Origin: a virus
Length of the DNA: 22,895 nucleotides
IMG/VR virus record: IMGVR_UViG_3300006920_000267
Location: 1-22,895 of that record
Direction: 5' to 3' (one strand)
The position numbers and the translations under genes are program-made. Numbering within the stretch: position 1 is the first letter of the stretch; every line of letters begins with the position of its first letter. Below are positions 6,703 to 22,895 of this stretch, piece after piece. The notes beneath the pieces are model-generated. The model was not told the DNA's origin. It saw only the letters and a list, made by a program, of their open reading frames with translations, and did not search any database.

Positions 6703-7542
6703 CTATGCTGTAGGAATAGGAATGGTGGCAACACCTGTGCTATTCGCTTTATCGTGTATGTGTTGGTTGTAAGCTGAGAACAATGCGTCTAAGTCTGACC
6801 CAGAAGCTGTTGTAACGTTACCAGATACACTTACAATGCACCCATTAAGATCCCAACTACCGCCAGCGGATAATGTACCATCACCGCTTGCATTGGTTAT
6901 AACCACAGATCCGTTTGGGTTCTGAGTAATTGAGCAGTTAGCGTTGCTTGAAGTTATAGTTCCATCTGGTGATTTAACTGTTGTACCACTTCCATTGGTA
7001 GTAGTTATAGTCCCATCTTCTAGTATCTCTATGTAGTTATTATCGCCCGATTGTGCCTTTATAGCATTAGTGGATGTTAGGGTTATCTGACAGTTCCTGT
7101 ACTTCCAAAAGGCATCATCCAAGCTTACAGGGAGGTCTAGTCCAGCTTGACCGTAGTAGCCAAGAACAACAACATCTGTACTACCAAACACGCGTTTATC
7201 AATGGGTAAGTACTGGTCAGCAGTGCTGCCGTAAGTGAATTCTTCGATGCTCCTCTTAGCATAACCAATAAGAACCTTATCACCAACCTTCAGGGGAAAG
7301 GAGAAAACACCCTCTTGTGTTGCTTGGAGAATAACTGGACAATTGTAGATATTATCTGGGACTATAATATCCCCATCACTCTGCTTTTCCATAATCAGTG
7401 GTAGGACGTCAACAACTCTATTAGCTTCATAGTCGGACACAGAGATAATAACTGCTGGGGCTACGGTTTCTATATTCTCTATGGCCCATTTTGAGGTTAC
7501 GTTCTCAAATACTTTTCTAGGGTTTTTATAAGCACCACTCAT
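6703..7542 (-). CDS. Baseplate central spike, Gp138/Mu gp45-like
   Basis: Residues about 20-130 match the Gp138-type N-terminal OB-fold domain of membrane-piercing spikes: VDVLPLI (44-50), NCPVILQ (67-73), LKVGDKVLIGYAKRSIEEF (84-102) and DKRVFGSTDVVVLG (115-128). Residues 140-245 are short Ser/Thr/Gly/Asn-rich strands (DGTITTTNG, PDGTITSSN, PNGSVVITN) typical of a triple-stranded beta helix. The tip contains H261-I-H263, which in P2 gpV and Mu gp45 spikes coordinates a metal ion. Total length is 279. It would form the trimeric needle below the hub encoded by the preceding gene. Confidence 0.85.
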   Translation of the reverse strand: MSGAYKNPRKVFENVTSKWAIENIETVAPAVIISVSDYEANRVVDVLPLIMEKQSDGDIIVPDNIYNCPVILQATQEGVFSFPLKVGDKVLIGYAKRSIEEFTYGSTADQYLPIDKRVFGSTDVVVLGYYGQAGLDLPVSLDDAFWKYRNCQITLTSTNAIKAQSGDNNYIEILEDGTITTTNGSGTTVKSPDGTITSSNANCSITQNPNGSVVITNASGDGTLSAGGSWDLNGCIVSVSGNVTTASGSDLDALFSAYNQHIHDKANSTGVATIPIPTA

Positions 7543-8642
7543 TACAGTTTCCTTAATGTTACTTCTGTATCCCAGGCATTTCCCCTGAAGTCTAGGTTAT
7601 GAATTACGCTTGTTATCTCATAATCACCATTGTACTCTAACTCAGAGAAGCCTCTTAGCCGCATAACCCTGTCCGTACTTATCCTACCGTCAAGGTATGT
7701 GGTTAGTTTCAGACTAGTCTTATCAACACCATCGTTGGCATTGGAGGCTGTACCAGAGTTGTCATCCATTGGTTGGATAGTATTCTTTACATTCTCTGGA
7801 GTTACTGTGAAAATTACTGCGCTTTTTGATAACGGGGTTTTTACTATTGTAGTATTACTAGAGTCTGTGGAAACCTTTAAAAGGGTGTCCTTTATGGATA
7901 CCGTTTTCAATGGCTCTACATAAAGCTTACCAAGCGCTGTGTAAGCCCTCATTTCTAAGCTCGCACAGAACCTGTCTATCTCATCGAACAAGTTCCCCTT
8001 AGCTGTGTAGCCAGAGAGGAAGGAACTGTTAATTATAGCTAACCCATTACTGCCTTCCTCTGGCAACCTGATACTTCCTATTGGCACCCCTTGAGTCTTG
8101 GCTAAGTCCAGCAGATCTCTAAGGACAGCAAGCCTTCTAGTATCTGGGCCGTAGGATTTGCTAATCTTGCTGTTCTTCTTTGTTGTTACACTATCACCAC
8201 ATAAAATGCTAGTGACTTTATCTGACCCTGAGAATGCAGTTGACACTCTTATAACTTGACCAACCATTATGTTTGGTTGTTGATCGTCTTCAATTAGACT
8301 TTGATTTTGTAAGTAATCTCCAGATGTTTGCCTGTACCCAGCTCGAAGGATAATAGTATCATCCTTCTTTATCCTTTTAATACTATCATCAGAGATGTTA
8401 GTTATAGTTATTTCATTAACTGGTGACTGGTCTTTAGTTTGACCTATCTTAGCTGTTATCTGGAAGTCCCTAAACACCATAAAGTTTGCAGGAACACTGT
8501 TGAAGTCCTGTGCCGGTACTCCTACGCTGTTAGTTCCTTTTGAGATTAATCTGGCCCCTCCCACTTTAGGGATTATTTTATCCTTTAGTGGGGTGGCCCT
8601 CCCTATCAGAAGCTCGTACTCTTTACCAAACCTAATAGCCAT
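7542..8642 (-). CDS. Baseplate hub protein (gp27 / Mu gp44-like)
   Basis: The 366-residue protein directly precedes the spike gene, the usual place of the hub (gpD, gp44 or gp27 family). Features agree with a hub built of beta barrels: NEITITNISDD (about 77-87), DDTIILRAGY, VGQVIRVSTAFSGSDKVTSI, then an interdomain region AVLRDLLDLAKTQGVP and a C-terminal domain ending in MRLRGFSELEYNGDYEIT. The last strands (AWDTEVTLRKL) are typical of hub C-termini. It abuts the plug gene with no gap and shares one base with the spike gene. No lysozyme or peptidase domain is fused. Confidence 0.72.
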   Translation of the reverse strand: MAIRFGKEYELLIGRATPLKDKIIPKVGGARLISKGTNSVGVPAQDFNSVPANFMVFRDFQITAKIGQTKDQSPVNEITITNISDDSIKRIKKDDTIILRAGYRQTSGDYLQNQSLIEDDQQPNIMVGQVIRVSTAFSGSDKVTSILCGDSVTTKKNSKISKSYGPDTRRLAVLRDLLDLAKTQGVPIGSIRLPEEGSNGLAIINSSFLSGYTAKGNLFDEIDRFCASLEMRAYTALGKLYVEPLKTVSIKDTLLKVSTDSSNTTIVKTPLSKSAVIFTVTPENVKNTIQPMDDNSGTASNANDGVDKTSLKLTTYLDGRISTDRVMRLRGFSELEYNGDYEITSVIHNLDFRGNAWDTEVTLRKL

Positions 8643-8988: not shown

Positions 8989-9612
8989 TTACAGGTTACC
9001 TGTAACGGCTGTATTGAGAAGTTTTCTGGTTAGAACAGCAGCGTCAGTCGCCTTATCGAACACAGTCTTCTCTTTTTCCTTCTGTGCATCGGTGTCATCG
9101 AAAGCTGATGTGGATGCAGACTTGTCCTTTTTAACTTGTTCTTGGTCAACATATAATGGATCTATGTCTACAAGTGTATCCACACCCTGAGAGTATAATA
9201 CCTTCTGCAACACCATACGTATCTTTGCGGATTGCACTACACCAGTGCCAGAACCACCACCGTAACCATTAGTGTTATCTTGGTCAGTATCAAATGATGT
9301 TATGTACCAGCCCTTATCTTCTTCGAGGTCTAGCCGATACTTTAGCGTTATAGGGACTTTAGCAATCCTTGCTGCTTTTAGTCCGTCTATATAATCAGAA
9401 AAACTTTTGGCTTTACTGTTACTTGTGGGGTTTTTAATATCAGAAATAACACCGCTTAGGGAGCACGTAGGAGCGTCGTTGACATAATTGTCTGACGCTG
9501 TTTTCCTGTCTTCCGTTGGGTGCGATGAGAGGGTTGATCTAAGGCTTATGTTTATATCTGTAGTTGCATCTAGGAAATAGAATACATCACCGACCTTCAG
9601 GTAGTAAGACAT
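8989..9612 (-). CDS. Dit-like baseplate/tail protein
   Basis: The 207-residue protein follows the tape measure gene with a one-base TAATG overlap. Its N-terminus has the Dit-like pattern: ISLRSTLSSHPTEDRKTASD (22-41), then NDAPTCSLSGVISDI, and later a 'VPITLKYRLDLEED.GWYIT' block (86-105). Such proteins cap the tail tube and start the baseplate in Mu/Pam3-type phages. A Gly-rich loop (YGGGSGTG) precedes the strand 'VQSAKIRMVLQKV', and the last 40 residues are charged and probably helical. Confidence 0.72.
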   Translation of the reverse strand: MSYYLKVGDVFYFLDATTDINISLRSTLSSHPTEDRKTASDNYVNDAPTCSLSGVISDIKNPTSNSKAKSFSDYIDGLKAARIAKVPITLKYRLDLEEDKGWYITSFDTDQDNTNGYGGGSGTGVVQSAKIRMVLQKVLYSQGVDTLVDIDPLYVDQEQVKKDKSASTSAFDDTDAQKEKEKTVFDKATDAAVLTRKLLNTAVTGNL

Positions 9613-11396
9613 TATTGATCCACCATTTCAAGTAGTGTTCCGATCTCGTTAGTAACACCCATCGTGTCATTAGCTTTTATATTGAAAGTGTTAGTGACAT
9701 TTTTTGTGGTATTGTTGGCTGCTTTCCTTCTTGTTGTAGCGCTCTGAGTTTGGATAGCACTACTAACACCAGCCCTTGAAGCCTCCCTTCCAGCTTGCCT
9801 TGCAGCAACCACTACACCAGCCGTACTATCTCTTGACATAACATTATCTAACAACTCGATAGCAGATAATAATACATATATACCAGTCACTACTGACATA
9901 ACTCCAGCAGCTATTCCGAAGAACACCCTCATCAACAACCCTGCCTTCTTAGTAGTCCCGTCCATGGCTTCTGCGGAAAACCCTAACACACTGGCTAGCT
10001 GATAAACTACATCAACCAGCAGCTCAATGGCCTTGCTTGCAACTACAATTACCACAGTGAAGGCTGGCGCTATGCTTTGTATAAACTTAGTAAGTTTAGA
10101 GAATATCTCACTCAAGCTTTTGGCAGTTCCTTTGTTAAAAGCATCACTGATAATAAATTTAAGGCTGTTCTTGAATCTACCAAACGAGGCATTAACCTTC
10201 TTCAATGAGGCTGCATAAGCTCCATTCTCCCTAACCATTCTCCTAATCTCCCTGGCAAAAGGAAGCATAAAATCTTTTGACATCAACTTACCAGCAGAGA
10301 CTAATTCCATAACCTCTCCCTGCGTCATGTTCATAGCACTTGCAGCGGCTTGCATGGTGATGGGTAGGTTCTCGCCTAGCTGCCTTGAAAGCTCCTCCAT
10401 ACTTACCTTACCTTTACTCATTATCTGAGAAAAGGCCAGCATAACTAGTCCCTGTCTTTGCGTATCTAACCCGAATGTAGTGGAGGCTTCGGCAGCAGAT
10501 AAAAATATCTCTCTCGACTCTGCTGTTGAGAGTCCAGCTCCTCTTGCAGCTACGGCCAATCGGTTAAACGCACCAACACCTGTCTCTATGTCTGTACCAA
10601 GAGTCATGGAAGATTTCTTAAGAAACTCGAAATTACTTTGAGCCTCTTCAGCACTACCTGACGCAGCTAGTAACCCAGCTTGCATCGAGTCCATATTCTT
10701 ACCAATTTTAAATACGGCACTAGCTCCAGAGACTACAGCATAGAAGCTAACCATCTGCAACCCTGCATGTTTAAGGCTAGAACTGAACTTATTGGTAACG
10801 GCGTTGCCTTTTCTCATGGATCTGTTGAACTTTTCTTGTTGTCGGGTTATGCCGTTAATCTCTTTCTTAACATCAGAGAAGGCAGACCTAAGCTCTCGTA
10901 CCTGTTTTGTAGTTTTAGCTACTTTAAGCTTAGCTGAGATGTCTGTAAGTTTACCTGTACTCGATGACAGTCTGTTCCTGAGTGACGGATCGGTAACGTT
11001 ATGAACCCTATTTTTAGCCGAAGCAAGGTCAACACCTAGCTGCTCAGCTCCACCGACTTGCCTGTTGGCACGTATGCTCCTGGAGATACCAATATCAGCG
11101 TTGGCCAGAACATCTGCCCTGTTAGATCTTATCCTCTGCTTGTGCCGATCACTTATACGTACACCAGCCTGTTCAGCCCTTTGTATCTTACTTTGTAATC
11201 TTTCTTGCTGTCTTTGGATACCTATAGTTCGCATCCGTTCTGCATTAGATTTTCTTAATAAAGTCGCTTCCTGCTTAAAGGCAACATTTTGTCTGGCTTG
11301 TGCTTTGTTTAACTTAGCAAAGACTTTAGGGTAATCCCTTTCCAGTGTCTTGGCATCTAATTTAAGTCTTAGGATGTAATCACTTACTTTATCCAA
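9612..11396 (-). CDS. Tape measure protein
   Basis: The 594-residue protein has an N-terminal charged helical region (1-200), a tape measure domain at about 222-420 (FKIGKNMDSMQAGLLAASGS, GVGAFNRLAVAARG, MSKGKVSMEELSRQLGENLP) and two hydrophobic stretches (442-472 and 485-515). The hydrophobic parts could contact the host membrane during DNA injection. The start is TTG at 11396, chosen because AAAGGAGG lies 6 bases upstream, the best Shine-Dalgarno in the window. By the usual ~1.5 angstroms per residue, the tail would be about 90 nm. No lysozyme domain is visible. It follows the chaperone pair, as is standard. Confidence 0.92.
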   Translation of the reverse strand: MDKVSDYILRLKLDAKTLERDYPKVFAKLNKAQARQNVAFKQEATLLRKSNAERMRTIGIQRQQERLQSKIQRAEQAGVRISDRHKQRIRSNRADVLANADIGISRSIRANRQVGGAEQLGVDLASAKNRVHNVTDPSLRNRLSSSTGKLTDISAKLKVAKTTKQVRELRSAFSDVKKEINGITRQQEKFNRSMRKGNAVTNKFSSSLKHAGLQMVSFYAVVSGASAVFKIGKNMDSMQAGLLAASGSAEEAQSNFEFLKKSSMTLGTDIETGVGAFNRLAVAARGAGLSTAESREIFLSAAEASTTFGLDTQRQGLVMLAFSQIMSKGKVSMEELSRQLGENLPITMQAAASAMNMTQGEVMELVSAGKLMSKDFMLPFAREIRRMVRENGAYAASLKKVNASFGRFKNSLKFIISDAFNKGTAKSLSEIFSKLTKFIQSIAPAFTVVIVVASKAIELLVDVVYQLASVLGFSAEAMDGTTKKAGLLMRVFFGIAAGVMSVVTGIYVLLSAIELLDNVMSRDSTAGVVVAARQAGREASRAGVSSAIQTQSATTRRKAANNTTKNVTNTFNIKANDTMGVTNEIGTLLEMVDQ

Positions 11397-11423
11397 CAGA
11401 CACCTCCTTTAAGTGTGGAAGTC

Positions 11424-11720
11424 TTACGACTTATTTTTAATCTCTTGGTCTTTATTAACAGCGTATTCTATTGCCTCTTTTATATGAGTCATTTCTTTCA
11501 TTTTAAACAACTCATCAACAGACATAGCCCATAACTCAAAGTAACTACAAGGGCAGTGCTTACTCAGTGCCAATGAACTTATAAGCAACTCAAAATGATC
11601 TATGTCTGGGGCATTGGCTTCTATTTTAGCCCTAACTAATCTTTCTGTTGGCCCGATAGGCCGCTCATCACTGACTGAAGGGAGGTAACTATTCCGACAA
11701 AACCCTTCTCCTCCAGCCAT
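11424..11720 (-). CDS. Tail assembly chaperone, -1 frameshift extension (GT-type)
   Basis: This frame overlaps the end of the preceding gene by 85 bases in the -1 frame. Its nominal ATG (11720) lies inside the upstream coding sequence, and residues before the slippery site look like frame shadow. The unit is better read as residues added after the shift at 11699, beginning with Cys-8 of this frame (CRNSYLP). That yields a 157 + 91 = 248-residue fusion. The added part (SDERPIGPTERLVRAKIEAN, IDHFELLISSLALS, FELWAMSVDELFKM) looks like the T domain of tail chaperones. Independent translation from the ATG cannot be excluded. Confidence 0.78.
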   Translation of the reverse strand: MAGGEGFCRNSYLPSVSDERPIGPTERLVRAKIEANAPDIDHFELLISSLALSKHCPCSYFELWAMSVDELFKMKEMTHIKEAIEYAVNKDQEIKNKS

Positions 11721-12169
11721 CGAACGAAAGGGATTGACAGGTTCTCCTTGAAAGCCACTTCAATTATAAACAATTGGTCATCAAGCCTTCCACGAAACTC
11801 TTCATCAAAGTCAAAAGTTTGTTCATTTTTTGTTAACCCTTCAAGAAGAAGATCCATTAGCTCTTGAAACTCTGGCCGATCTATTTGTTGACTCAGTACA
11901 ACAGAAAACTCAAAGAAGCTTAAGTCAAATTTGTCAGGGACTACTCCAGCCTCTAGGTCTTCTTTGGCCCGTTCTACAGAGGAGGTGTAATCATTGTATG
12001 TGTCCACAGACGTGGAGAGGACTGGGCCAAGTAAGGAGATAGCTTTAGCAAACGCTAGTCTAGCTTTGCTGGCTGGGAGGAGTTTTAGCTGGTATTCATC
12101 TTTTGGTCTGCTTCGGAAGACTATTTTCCGAATCCCCATATCGTAGAGGATTTTTGATGTGTTGTCCAT
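11636..12169 (-). CDS. Tail assembly chaperone, G-type
   Basis: The 177-residue protein lies between the tube and the tape measure genes, where tail chaperones are nearly always found. It is mostly helical and acidic (SSVERAKEDLEAGVVPD, FRGRLDDQLFIIEVAFKEN). It ends in frame 0 shortly after the slippery site (LQSVMSGLSGQQKD). Together with the -1 product it should coat the tape measure protein and recruit tube subunits. In lambda the G and GT products are both needed in a fixed ratio. Start ATG at 12169 has AGG about 6-7 bases upstream. A hairpin lies in the gap to the tube gene. Confidence 0.78.
   Translation of the reverse strand: MDNTSKILYDMGIRKIVFRSRPKDEYQLKLLPASKARLAFAKAISLLGPVLSTSVDTYNDYTSSVERAKEDLEAGVVPDKFDLSFFEFSVVLSQQIDRPEFQELMDLLLEGLTKNEQTFDFDEEFRGRLDDQLFIIEVAFKENLSIPFVRWLEEKGFVGIVTSLQSVMSGLSGQQKD
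11699..11705 (-). other. Programmed -1 frameshift site G_GGU_UUU
   Basis: In the frame of the upstream chaperone the codons read AAG GGT TTT, so the heptamer GGGTTTT fits X_XXY_YYZ with X = G and Y = T, and both tRNAs can re-pair after slipping. The shift joins residue 157 of the upstream frame to the downstream frame. A Shine-Dalgarno-like GGAGGAG sits just upstream (11708-11714), and a 4-5 bp GGCC hairpin lies about 30-40 bases downstream. This matches tail chaperone pairs in many phages. Confidence 0.78.
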
Positions 12170-12195
12170 AGTTTACCTGTTACTCTTAAGAAGAT

Positions 12196-12216
12196 AGCCC
12201 TGCATTGCACAGGGCT
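12196..12216 (-). terminator. Hairpin between tail tube and chaperone genes
   Basis: AGCCCTG and CAGGGCT pair in a 7 bp perfect stem with a 7-base loop, inside a 67-base gap that stands out among near-zero gaps. On the minus strand it is followed by ATCTTCTT, only a loose T tract, so it would be a weak terminator or a processing site. It would lower expression of chaperones and tape measure relative to the abundant tube protein. Confidence 0.55.
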
Positions 12217-12236
12217 CATTATTATTCAGATGACTC

Positions 12237-12752
12237 TTAGAATACGTAACGTGTTTCTAAGGTAGCCTCTATTGATCCAGTTATTTCTGCAACAACATCA
12301 GCATTAAATGTAAAGCCATCAGCATCCTTCTCTTTCAATTCTGAGCAGTAGAAGACCCAAGTGTTTGTGGCAGTTGCCATATCCTCACTCTTAGTCTCTG
12401 TAGGACGGGCTTTAATGTAACATCCAGCCAACTCATACAAATACAACGTTCCAGCACCATCAATAGAAATGTTAGCAATAGTTTTAGTGTTGTTGTTAAA
12501 GTCATCACGAACAATACGTGATAAAGCTGTGTTTGCTACAGATTGAGCTTGTAGCTGAATCGTTATAGTAGCTGAACGGTCGCTCATAAGAGAGATACTA
12601 GTAGCGAAGCTGCCTGCATCTTGGCTCTCGGAAGTTAGTTCAGAGTTTGGGGCAATCTCAATATAAGAGTCTTTAGAGAGAGCACCAGTTAGGTTTATAG
12701 CACCAAACGCAATATTGTTTAATCTGGCTGCGTGAATAGGTTCAAAATACAT
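12237..12752 (-). CDS. Tail tube protein (DUF3277-like)
   Basis: The 171-residue protein follows the sheath gene by 3 bases, the usual sheath-tube pair. It shows the tube pattern: an opening 'FGAINLTGALSKDSYIEIAP', then a 'SLMSDRSATITIQLQAQSVA' strand-loop, NTALSRIVRDDF and a later 'LYELAGCYIKARPTETKS' region. The end is beta-rich (GSIEATLETRYVF). It would form the inner tube through which DNA passes. GAGGG sits 7 bases before the ATG, overlapping the sheath stop region. Confidence 0.82.
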   Translation of the reverse strand: MYFEPIHAARLNNIAFGAINLTGALSKDSYIEIAPNSELTSESQDAGSFATSISLMSDRSATITIQLQAQSVANTALSRIVRDDFNNNTKTIANISIDGAGTLYLYELAGCYIKARPTETKSEDMATATNTWVFYCSELKEKDADGFTFNADVVAEITGSIEATLETRYVF

Positions 12753-12755
12753 TTA

Positions 12756-14144
12756 TTAACCCTCTGCTGGATCGCGGTATGTTAGTGTCATGTTTAGTAC
12801 TGTACTGTCAATAGATGCGTCTAAGTAGCAGGTTACTGAACCATTTATGTTACCGTCTGTGCGGTCTTCAAGAGAGATGTCTTTTTCTTTAGGGAGTGTG
12901 ATCACATAGGGCTTAACTGGATCAAGCGCCTGAGTACCAGAGGCACCACTAACATTTGAATCTAGGAAAGTAGCCCAAACGTTACGCATTAGGTTAAGGT
13001 CAGCGTCGTTCATGCCGAGTTTACGCTTACGGAGGAACAAGGTGTCAACCTTACGCTTCAGCTCTTGTCTGAAGTAATTAAGAACAGCAATAGCTTCAAT
13101 TCGTATACCGGTTGATACTCGGTTTCCTGCAACAACTGCAACACCACCAAGGGATATTACTGTGGATGCATACACCTGATCCAAGTTGTATAACTCATTA
13201 CCATTCAAAGCGCGGCTGAGATCAAGTACTTGAGCAATACCAAAACCACTCAAAGATTTATAATTAAAGTCATCTCGTCCAGGCTTAACATCTGTAAACT
13301 GAGTAATACGAACACACTCTGGGTAGTTAGCCGCTAAGTGGTGGTACATGCAGTGACCGAAGTTGTTGACACTCTCTTTAAGTCTAGCAGGAACATTGTT
13401 AGCATCTGGTGTGCTGATACCATCCCAAGCAGCATAAGCTTCAGCAAGTGCAGTAGAAGTAACATACAGTTTCTGGTAGAGGGCTCCTTGAGCTGCCATA
13501 GACATCTGGTACGTTGGTGTATGGTCAGTAGCGGCTATGTAAGTCCAGTCAGTATTTATCTCTCGGATAGCTGTAATAGTATCAGCAGCAGTTTCTGTTG
13601 CAGAAGAAGTGATAGTTATGTTGGCAGTTGCACTCTCAATAGAGAAGTCATCAGTTCCAGCGACTAGCGAGATAGTTAGAACAGCGTCAGCTCCAGCCCC
13701 AACAACAGTGGCAGTGACATGATCTGTAATATCTGTAACAGCGTCTATGGCAGCTTTCCACCCGATAGCCACTTCTTCGGCTGTATCAGTAACTAATGCA
13801 GTATGAGATACTGCTAAGGTCGCACCATCGGCTACGGTGACAGTGAAGTCGTAAACTGCGTCTAGCACAACACCAGTTGGTGTTAATGTTGCAGTACCTT
13901 TAGAGCGGCCAACAACAACCTTAGCAGGAGCAGCAGATGAGCTAAAAGCACTATCTAGGGCTCTTCGTAAAGGGGTTCCAGATGGGACTACAGAAGAGTA
14001 TCCATCTATGCTTGTATAGACTGTAGCTCTAGTAGTTGCGTCCAGATGGTTGCAATCAACAATCAATAATGTTGAATAGTCAATTGCAGCAGCAGCAGTC
14101 AGCTCCAAGCTAGCGTTGACAACGTTAATATTTTGTAGTGGCAC
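12756..14144 (-). CDS. Tail sheath protein (DUF3383-like)
   Basis: The start is GTG at 14144 (no ATG fits), with GGAG 7 bases upstream. The 462-residue protein fits DUF3383 sheaths: an N-terminal AAAAIDYSTLLIVDCNH, an inserted beta domain at about 97-182 (YDFTVTVADG, then SIESATANITITSS), INTDWTYIAATDHTPTYQMS, and a C-terminal core with VAVVAGNRVSTGIRIEAIAV and TLFLRKRKLGMNDADLNLMR. The closing strand is NMTLTYRDPAEG. It contracts around the tube to drive penetration. It precedes the tube gene directly, and lies 19 bases after the neck gene. Confidence 0.88.
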   Translation of the reverse strand: MPLQNINVVNASLELTAAAAIDYSTLLIVDCNHLDATTRATVYTSIDGYSSVVPSGTPLRRALDSAFSSSAAPAKVVVGRSKGTATLTPTGVVLDAVYDFTVTVADGATLAVSHTALVTDTAEEVAIGWKAAIDAVTDITDHVTATVVGAGADAVLTISLVAGTDDFSIESATANITITSSATETAADTITAIREINTDWTYIAATDHTPTYQMSMAAQGALYQKLYVTSTALAEAYAAWDGISTPDANNVPARLKESVNNFGHCMYHHLAANYPECVRITQFTDVKPGRDDFNYKSLSGFGIAQVLDLSRALNGNELYNLDQVYASTVISLGGVAVVAGNRVSTGIRIEAIAVLNYFRQELKRKVDTLFLRKRKLGMNDADLNLMRNVWATFLDSNVSGASGTQALDPVKPYVITLPKEKDISLEDRTDGNINGSVTCYLDASIDSTVLNMTLTYRDPAEG

Positions 14145-20821: not shown

Positions 20822-21160
20822 TTAACAACTAAAAACAGTGAATGTTAAAGACCCAATGATTTTATTCTGACCTGCTGGAGTTAGGGAATTAAGACAAGCG
20901 TGGAACACACCAGAACCCTCTATATCACCCTTAGCTAACTCGTACTCAACGTACTCATTTATTACATAATCTACTGGGCCAGAGCCATCTTCATTATCCA
21001 AGGTCTTGTTTGTGGCACCAAGTACTAGGCCATCTGCCGCAGTGACAACTAGAATTGGAGTTAACCGGCCATCCCTGTAAACGTAAATAGAATTAGTGTT
21101 TAACGATATATCCTCGTTAGCAGTAATCCTAATGTAATTACCATATTCACCGTCTATCAT
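20822..21160 (-). CDS. Small beta-rich phage protein, unknown
   Basis: The 112-residue protein shares four bases (ATGA) with the repeat-protein gene and ends 28 bases before the portal start. It is beta-rich: YGNYIRITANEDISLNTNSI, then YVYRDGRLTPILVV, and NEYVEYELAKGDIEGSGV, with a C-terminal SLTFTVFSC. It has neither signal peptide nor membrane segment. Position before the portal suggests a virion or decoration accessory. No family is recognised. Confidence 0.55.
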   Translation of the reverse strand: MIDGEYGNYIRITANEDISLNTNSIYVYRDGRLTPILVVTAADGLVLGATNKTLDNEDGSGPVDYVINEYVEYELAKGDIEGSGVFHACLNSLTPAGQNKIIGSLTFTVFSC

Positions 21161-21375
21161 AGTTCACCTGAAAAGTTTAAATCTGAAAGTGTAGAGACAC
21201 CTGAAAAGTTTAAGTCTGAAAGTGCATGTATACCTGAGAAATTTAAGTCAGGTAGTAAGAACCCACCTGAGAAATTTAAATCCTCACCAACAATAATTAG
21301 TGAAGGGGCGCTTGTATAATCAACAAAAACGCCTTTTATTAAATAAGAATGACCTTCTGTGTAAATGTTGTACAT
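21157..21375 (-). CDS. Small protein with C-terminal 11-residue repeats
   Basis: The 72-residue protein has an unremarkable N-terminus (1-31) and then four copies of an 11-residue repeat at 32, 43, 54 and 65. Each begins DLNFSG and the last copy stops at EL. The copies are in frame and share one 33-base DNA unit. ATG at 21375 has AGG 6 bases upstream. It lies between the large fibre-like gene and the 112-residue protein and is probably co-translated with both. Function is unknown; the repeats could form a small beta solenoid or a binding array. Confidence 0.62.
   Translation of the reverse strand: MYNIYTEGHSYLIKGVFVDYTSAPSLIIVGEDLNFSGGFLLPDLNFSGIHALSDLNFSGVSTLSDLNFSGEL
21167..21282 (-). repeat. 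Four 33-base tandem repeats in the small repeat gene
   Basis: Four copies of a 17-base core CCTGARAARTTTAARTC (plus strand) start at 21167, 21200, 21234-21233 and 21266, that is at a constant spacing of 33 bases. Differences are mostly third-position changes, so the encoded DLNFSG is unchanged while the intervening five residues vary. Purifying selection on the hexapeptide is the simplest reading. Confidence 0.8.
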
Positions 21376-21384
21376 TGCGACCTA

Positions 21385-22895
21385 CTATTGTACTGTCTTG
21401 AATGTGACCCACCTATCATTGGCAGTGGCTGAACTGAAGCGCCATGTGATAACATCCCCGTTTGTATCCGCTGCTAGTCCATCAAACTTATACAGACCGT
21501 TGCTGACTTCAGTAATAGTGCCAGACACAGCTATAAAAGAACCACCATCTACGGATCGTTGGCCTGTCACTGTGAGCCCAGGGGCTGGGCTTTTATCGTC
21601 AGAGGATAGAACCATAAGGAACTCAAAATTACTGAATACCTCGTTCTTGGCTATACCTTGCTCCCTCAAGAGTCCTGGGAGTGTAGTACCAACCGCAGTG
21701 ATAACAGTGTCTATACCAGCCTGTGCAGTTGCTAAGGCTCCTGCTGTTGCTAAGCTGGCACTGGTAATAGCTGAGGCACACTGCGAGTTTATCTGCAAGG
21801 CTGAAACCTTACCACCATCAACCACAGTTACAGAACCACCGGAGTTATCTGTTAAAGTGAAGTTGCCGTATACCGTTAATACTCCGCCTGTGCAGTTTGC
21901 ATCTAACGTGATATTCCCACCATCTCCGTGTATCTGGGCTGTACTTGTTGCTGCCAATCGCTTTATATATATATCTGTACTAACCCTAGTACATATAAGG
22001 TCTATACTGGTAAGCAGTGCAAAATCGAAGGTTGGCGGTGTGGCGCTTACAGGTCTTGGTATATCTACTGTATACGTATTACTAGCTTGGGCAAATACAA
22101 CGTCACCACCAAAAGAGCAATCTGTAGAGAAGAAGTCACCTAGCGTGTTCCCGTCGAACCTACAATTATCATAGAACGTCCTTTGGGCATTCGACCCGTC
22201 GTCATCTCCTTGTATACGCATTCTATTAAACAAGGTGGAAGACATAGATTGGCCACCTAAATTAACCAACGCCCCTGTACCCATATTAACAACTTCGTAA
22301 CCATCTAGACCAAAAGGCATAACGCCTAGGTTTGACCCAGACTGTACTCTAAGCTTGTTTAGGTTATTTGCATCAGCAATAGTCTTTGCATCTGTAATGT
22401 TATCTGAGGGTGAGCTGGCAAACCCAACCCCTTGACCTGTTCCAGCCACACCATTTACAGTATCAATCCACACAGCATTATCGAGGAATCCTCTTGACAC
22501 TGTTGTATTAACAGAGGAGATTATAAATTGATCTATAAATAATCGGGGAGATGTCTGTGCAGTGCATCTAAAGTTTATATACGTCCAACCCAGATCTTCA
22601 CCAACCGTACCTGTATGCTTGGACAGTAAGCTGATCGGTTGATTAATATTACCAGCATTGGGTTGACCGTCTACTATAAAATCTGGGTTGACTGGCCATG
22701 CGGAACTAGGGAAATCGTAGACCCGTATTTCCACTTTGTCGTTACTTCCCAACAGATACCCAGCAAAAAATGCAGATATTGCTTGGAGAGTAACACCAGA
22801 GAAGTAACCAAGTACATATTCGATATTATTGTCAGCGTGTAGTACATCAACGTAGATGCCGTTATTTGACTCTGTGTCTGCTACAACCCCCGTAG
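21385..22895 (-). CDS. Large fibre- or decoration-like structural protein (5' end off window)
   Basis: The frame is open to the right edge. A TTG at 22752 is not a convincing start, because 47 more open codons precede it and read as protein (NGIYVDVLHADNNIEYVLGY). At least 502 residues are present. The N-terminal region is beta-rich (KVEIRVYDFPSSAWP, WTYINFRCTAQ). The centre shows short Asp/Gly/Thr/Ser-rich strands (GGNITLDANCTGGVLTVYGN) like a beta helix. A helix-rich hinge (SALQINSQCASAITSASLAT) precedes a C-terminal Ig-like module with SVDGGSFIAVSGTITEVSNG and LYKFDGLAADTNGDVITWRF. Such modules occur in phage structural proteins. Position upstream of the portal suggests a head decoration or head fibre. 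It ends 9 bases before the repeat gene. Confidence 0.68.
   Translation of the reverse strand, partial: TGVVADTESNNGIYVDVLHADNNIEYVLGYFSGVTLQAISAFFAGYLLGSNDKVEIRVYDFPSSAWPVNPDFIVDGQPNAGNINQPISLLSKHTGTVGEDLGWTYINFRCTAQTSPRLFIDQFIISSVNTTVSRGFLDNAVWIDTVNGVAGTGQGVGFASSPSDNITDAKTIADANNLNKLRVQSGSNLGVMPFGLDGYEVVNMGTGALVNLGGQSMSSTLFNRMRIQGDDDGSNAQRTFYDNCRFDGNTLGDFFSTDCSFGGDVVFAQASNTYTVDIPRPVSATPPTFDFALLTSIDLICTRVSTDIYIKRLAATSTAQIHGDGGNITLDANCTGGVLTVYGNFTLTDNSGGSVTVVDGGKVSALQINSQCASAITSASLATAGALATAQAGIDTVITAVGTTLPGLLREQGIAKNEVFSNFEFLMVLSSDDKSPAPGLTVTGQRSVDGGSFIAVSGTITEVSNGLYKFDGLAADTNGDVITWRFSSATANDRWVTFKTVQ

Follow-up and report, generated by a model that had tools for sequence, protein, structure and literature searches.

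A predicted programmed -1 frameshift in a phage tail assembly chaperone gene probably uses an in-phase heptamer 27 nt upstream of the obvious one

The 22,895-base virus record analyzed here, which we call the window, carries a phage structural module on its minus strand (Table 1). In this module we identified a tail assembly chaperone gene, TAC-N, whose product belongs to Pfam family PF21822 (Phage_TAC_15; 33.7 bits over residues 25-148, against a cut-off of 22) and also matches phrog_1613 and phrog_3840, both named tail assembly chaperone. TAC-N adjoins the tape measure gene, as in the gene order of G/GT-type chaperones, and shares with that type an overlapping -1 frame together with an in-phase slippery heptamer; its own 0-frame stop codon lies at 11638-11636 (minus). 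From its gene position, we take the phrog_280 protein to be the tail tube. The TAC protein is identical in two more contigs (L001 and L002), and the TAC-N of a more distant contig, L003, is 51% identical to that of the window.

Table 1. Coordinates of the genes and signals at the chaperone locus.
Feature	Coordinates	Strand	Remarks
Tape measure gene	9612-11396	minus	TMP_3, 88.3 bits
-1 ORF	11424-11720	minus	98 aa from the nominal ATG; overlaps the TAC-N 3' end
TAC-C	11424-11726	minus	-1 extension as read after a slip at the upstream heptamer, 100 codons and stop; conserved, open frame
TAC-N	11636-12169	minus	tail assembly chaperone, 177 aa, 0 frame; PF21822, phrog_1613, phrog_3840
Predicted hairpin	11672-11719	minus	10-bp outer stem, 11719-11710 with 11681-11672; starts 6 nt after C_CCU_UUC
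G_GGU_UUU	11705-11699	minus	heptamer of the earlier note; in phase, inside the hairpin
Nominal ATG of the -1 frame	11720-11718	minus	no Shine-Dalgarno (+1.5 kcal/mol); probably not used
C_CCU_UUC	11732-11726	minus	proposed slip heptamer; in phase, at the family position
AAGGAG	11749-11744	minus	Shine-Dalgarno-like; ends 11 nt before C_CCU_UUC; predicted -8.0 kcal/mol with the anti-SD
phrog_280 protein	12237-12752	minus	'virion structural protein'; between TAC-N and the sheath
Tail sheath	12756-14144	minus	phrog_205; on the other side of TAC-N from the tape measure gene

An earlier note on this DNA had named a single slip heptamer, G_GGU_UUU; it is indeed in phase, but a second in-phase heptamer, C_CCU_UUC, sits 27 nt upstream in the same overlap and had been missed. 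Counting X_XXY_YYZ heptamers with Y = A/T, both of these included, we found 16 in phase in the 7,049 codons of 28 minus-strand ORFs taken as genes; the chance of one within 40 codons is 8.7% and that of two 0.4%. A single heptamer is weak evidence for frameshifting. Heptamer pairs recur in the overlaps of related loci: C_CCT_TTT and G_GGT_TTT in L003, C_CCT_TTA and G_GGT_TTC in both L022 and L058, and T_TTT_TTT followed 21 nt on by G_GGA_AAA in L021. Frames, heptamers and their conservation are all read directly from the letters.

Over 94 aa, the -1 product shares 45.7% identity with that of L003 (E 3e-25); its matches to those of L021 (E 2e-4) and L047 (E 5e-6) are weak. Across 22 chaperone loci, a count which omits DSS3P8 (L111), whose 7-nt overlap has a different layout, and L047, whose contig begins inside the chaperone gene, the -1 frame stays open for 47-86 codons beyond the 0-frame stop in every case. 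Since the extension is conserved in this way, the case for a frameshift goes beyond chance, and comparison of the frames supports well a programmed -1 shift that joins the two chaperone frames, as the earlier note had proposed; its placement of the slip at G_GGU_UUU did not find such support. That the -1 frame might be a chance ORF or the product of a sequencing error is scarcely credible, given the identical TAC protein in L001 and L002 and the conserved -1 protein in divergent relatives.

The second frame could also encode a separate protein, started at an internal ATG, GTG or TTG or by re-initiation after the 0-frame stop, and short separate ORFs are indeed annotated in the -1 region of some loci, PT11-V22 among them. 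In 4/22 loci, a later start codon of the -1 frame has an SD-like match at least as strong as -5 kcal/mol (L003, L021, PaoP5 and LSL4, the last with a strong match of -11.1 kcal/mol); these same four loci also carry a slippery run. Against this, the four candidate starts in the window score only +1.5, +0.4, -2.2 and -2.2 kcal/mol, the first of these being the nominal ATG, compared with -3.8 kcal/mol at the start of TAC-N itself, which agrees with the earlier proposal that this ATG is probably unused. Moreover, no ATG, GTG or TTG that would yield at least 30 aa in the -1 frame exists in three of the 22 loci (L022, L058 and Vibrio phage 1.170.O), and in the upstream direction this frame runs without a stop across the family heptamer in 21 loci and, in the remaining one, barba, across a different heptamer. 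We looked for a locus whose second gene is separate, has a Shine-Dalgarno of its own and lacks a slippery run, and found none among the 22. We therefore regard a separately started protein as very improbable.

Aligning the loci placed the slip site more closely. An in-phase heptamer is present in 19 of the 22 and a GTT_TTT run in the other three (PaoP5, LSL4 and Acba_22), and in 18 loci the slippery run occupies the same two alignment columns as C_CCT_TTC of the window (15 heptamers, 13 of them T_TTT_TTY, and the three GTT_TTT runs). The heptamer lies one codon earlier in L022, L058 and eugene 12A10, and barba carries G_GGA_AAG seven columns after the family position. G_GGT_TTY is confined to 4/22 loci (the window, L003, L022 and L058), and the partial locus L047, outside the count, has GGT_TAC in its place. 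Five close loci have three or four residues in common just after the slip codons, residues which are absent from the other 17 and which coincide with the 5' half of the hairpin described below. The GTTTTT reported as invariant in the TAC genes of Vandenendeviridae and Andersonviridae was not found in the window, where this codon pair is C_CCT_TTC.

For each heptamer, we took the strongest anti-SD match whose end lies 6-15 nt upstream and ranked it against gene segments. For the upstream heptamer, the match was equalled by 5.1, 4.3, 2.3, 8.3 and 2.7% of segments in the window, L003, L022, L058 and L021, respectively (the same order is used throughout), the match in the window being AAGGAG; for the downstream heptamer, the values were 24, 52, 50, 41 and 63%. 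No SD-like element was found 6-15 nt before G_GGU_UUU of the window, and a GGAGGAG located 2 nt ahead of this heptamer is not suitably spaced. SD elements that stimulate -1 shifts are spaced 9-14 nt from the site and those that stimulate +1 shifts 3 nt, according to the accessible part of PMC5009743; the window's spacing of 11 nt falls within the former range, as in dnaX-like signals, and that of L022 (8 nt) just outside it. Among ten other loci, V5, BPS15Q2 and eugene ranked at 2-3.4% and PT11-V22 at 11.6%, and the remaining six, at 29-92%, showed no SD-like element before the heptamer.

A stem-loop of -18.0 kcal/mol is predicted to start 6 nt after C_CCU_UUC, within the 4-10 nt of dnaX-like signals. 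Predicted hairpins start 6-8 nt after the upstream heptamer in all five loci (-18.0, -15.6, -17.7, -19.3 and -13.1 kcal/mol). Of 150 positions drawn at random from the same sequence, 2.7, 7.3, 0.7, 0 and 26% were as stable, so that the hairpin of L021 is unremarkable for its own sequence; structure after the downstream heptamer was equalled at 57, 59, 100, 49 and 100%. The L003 value belongs to a longer fold, different from the window's stem; the stem homologous to the latter reaches -13.2 to -14.0 kcal/mol, with 17% of sequence windows as stable in a plainer test. Dinucleotide shuffles gave z = -1.96 for positions 11660-11725 of the window (9/200 as good) and z = +1.13 for the 60 nt after G_GGU_UUU. 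In ten other loci, no comparable hairpin was found after the heptamer (12-70% of random positions as stable), and Rfam gave no match within 11400-12250 of the window.

With the register set by hand from the folds, as a MAFFT alignment of the DNA signal misplaced the 3' arm, the outer stem pairs at 10/10 positions in the window, L003, L022 and L058 each, though arms swapped between groups retain 7-9 of 10 pairs, a control not far below the real stems. Between the window and L022, two pairs are changed on both sides and four on one. The GGG of G_GGU_UUU falls within the predicted hairpin, where two or three of these G pair in the inner stem; its conservation thus has a reason other than slipping.

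Synonymous codon use in L022 and L058, a pair chosen after the fact, was compared at conserved residues only, M and W excluded. Codons were identical at 53/101 residues before the upstream heptamer, at 8/8 between the two heptamers and at 15/15 beginning with the downstream one. The contrast has P = 0.008 when only the intervening stretch is considered and P = 3e-6 overall. Synonymous changes end at gene position 393, and the upstream heptamer begins at 398. The overlap and the hairpin, each of them a feature of the upstream site, could both cause this constraint. Repeated between the window and L003, the test was not significant (12/18 vs 33/69, P = 0.12).

Computed from the frames, the products are 177 residues and, after a slip at either site, a predicted fusion of 248 residues, both as the earlier note had stated. 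The two possible fusions differ at nine positions: a slip at the upstream heptamer would give the junction ..ENLSIPF|RSMAGGEGFCRNS, and one at the downstream heptamer ..IPFVRWLEEKGF|CRNS. The sites thus predict different peptides, which makes the question of the site directly testable. The peptide across F157-C that had been suggested as a test does not separate them, since G-F-C is present in both fusions (the -1 frame also reads G-F-C there), and it would discriminate only if it reached further upstream.

Taken together, these data suggest that the slip site had been misassigned, and that slipping probably occurs at C_CCU_UUC, which is favored by its family position, the SD-like element, the hairpin and the onset of synonymous conservation. 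We give a probability of roughly 0.78 to the full reading, in which one gene yields two products by a slip at C_CCU_UUC, with the SD-like element behind it and the hairpin ahead, the longer product being a 248-aa TAC-NC. Most ribosomes would translate TAC-N and terminate at its stop codon, and a minority would be held over C_CCU_UUC by AAGGAG pairing with 16S rRNA behind and the hairpin in front, both of them computed predictions. The tRNA in the P site would then re-pair from CCU to CCC and that in the A site from UUC to UUU, after which translation would continue in the -1 frame to position 11424, with G_GGU_UUU serving mainly as a part of the hairpin. By analogy with lambda gpG/gpGT, TAC-N may coat the tape measure protein and the added domain may recruit tail tube subunits; that slipping occurs, at whatever level, and that the products play these roles is what we infer from the arrangement. 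Under this reading, the nominal ATG, which the earlier note had placed before the slip, is upstream of G_GGU_UUU and yet lies after the slip itself.

A slip at G_GGU_UUU, after the nominal ATG, is quite unlikely by comparison. R_RR.U_UU.Y is shift-prone in E. coli, and the rules in the accessible part of PMC4066793, as we interpret them, make both C_CC.U_UU.C and G_GG.U_UU.U shift-prone; G_GGT_TTY is moreover kept in four loci, two of which, L022 and L058, carry at the upstream site C_CCU_UUA, a weaker heptamer with a weak A-site motif which, lying one codon early, also counts against that site: in E. coli, U_UUA tetramers exceed background by only 1.8- to 3.6-fold when a strong stimulator is present (PMC4066793, same part). 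G_GGU_UUU is, however, off the family slip position, lacks both an SD-like element at the proper distance and a stable hairpin after it, lies downstream of where synonymous conservation begins, and has its GGG accounted for by the stem. It may nonetheless contribute to slipping, perhaps more so in L022 and L058. Two working sites for one -1 frame, with the hairpin heptamer slipping too to give equal-length isoforms that differ at about nine residues, and with the upstream C_CCU_UUA of L022 and L058 decaying as the downstream site takes over, are conceivable though unlikely; if true, a frameshift site would hop along its gene while the fusion is retained. Under the preferred slip at C_CCU_UUC, the locus illustrates that an obvious heptamer can misplace a slip site even where the call of a frameshift is right, and that a neighboring heptamer can be part of a stimulatory hairpin.

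Frameshifts of the G/GT type make two products, the long one minor and both absent from the virion; the lambda gpG/gpGT case is reportedly that of Xu 2004. Such frameshifts in tail chaperones have long been known, and the window resembles lambda, with its low-level -1 shift, in having the site near the end of the chaperone gene and a second domain joined on (PMC5009743, accessible part). The heptamer of the window differs from that of lambda. E. coli dnaX, a gene unrelated to the window's chaperone, likewise combines an SD-like element, a heptamer and a stem-loop (11 bp, against 10 bp in the window), but its A_AAA_AAG shifts about 50% of ribosomes to an early stop, whereas the shift in the window extends the protein (PMC5009743, same part). 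In an HK97-like chaperone cluster, two genes frameshift at 6% and 7% (PMC3711429, accessible part).

Closest to the window are the Vandenendeviridae (56 alleles, 159 genomes) and Andersonviridae (231), for which a TAC -1 frameshift at the invariant GTTTTT has been proposed in the part of PMC12846349 (Pseudomonas phage Adele) available to us. The window chaperone belongs to the same family by weak similarity (PaoP5, BPS15Q2), and likewise has its place before the tape measure gene, a -1 extension and a slippery run at the same codon pair; unlike those genes, it has ATCCCTTTCG there, along with an SD-like element and a hairpin. In the openly licensed literature, we found no tandem slippery sites in phage; the matches listed for CCCTTTC with frameshift concern people or animals, and those listed for CCCUUU with ribosomal frameshift have no phage in the title. 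The accessible parts of PMC10885494 and PMC3711429 hold nothing on the window's arrangement of heptamer, SD-like element and hairpin. The kind of frameshift is thus known, and what may be new, on weak evidence of novelty, is C_CCU_UUY with an SD-like element and a hairpin within the GTTTTT family. The arrangement suggests a lineage of tail chaperones whose usual U-run slip site was exchanged for that combination.

Relatives were sought in several ways. Scans of viral contigs with TAC, sheath, tape measure and tube queries (single proteins or two-row alignments) returned only contigs identical or nearly identical to the window and the contig of L003, a genome contig scan with the tape measure alignment confirmed 0/63 candidates, and tblastn with the probable tube protein and with the L022 chaperone found no phage record. 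The tape measure DNA pattern K-G-K-V-S-M-E-E gave 87 stretches, with a whole related TAC locus in L021, L022 and L058 and part of one in L047. With the pattern D-W-V-F-Y-C-E, 5 stretches were obtained, of which L102 and L103 were new, as well as 2 in genome contigs (L104 and L105); these four were dropped, having no match at E 0.01.

Several further observations were made along the way. Short hypothetical proteins annotated in L005 (3507-3626), L107 (2799-2993), L115 (2004-2159) and L120 (2043-2156) correspond to portions of the -1 extension, and are probably misannotated pieces of a fusion. The window gene at 7542-8642 (minus) has an in-phase G_GGA_AAT 40 nt before its stop, with a -1 frame that runs on for 293 codons, into the gene that follows; in L015, L022 and L047, the last 150 nt of this gene hold no in-phase heptamer, and we rejected GGGAAAT as a slip site, its occurrence being probably due to chance. 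Some relatives have extra genes around the chaperone: Vibrio phage 424E50-1 encodes a putative GIY-YIG endonuclease ahead of its tape measure gene (L106 2002-3114), eugene 12A10 has a 1.2-kb hypothetical ORF before the chaperone (L107 826-2064), and Rheinheimera phage barba_10-9C has a putative DNA-binding protein on the reverse strand (L112 2249-2926). Records OK283618, MG065661 and OR850254, named as Listeria, Campylobacter and Staphylococcus phages, match chaperone or tape measure genes typical of enterobacterial phages, and their names or contents may have been mixed up. Elsewhere in the window, a 269-aa ORF at 21365-22174 (plus) lies opposite a 455-aa ORF (21385-22752) and is probably a shadow ORF, and a 72-aa ORF at 21157-21375 (minus) contains four copies of the six-residue unit DLNFSG.
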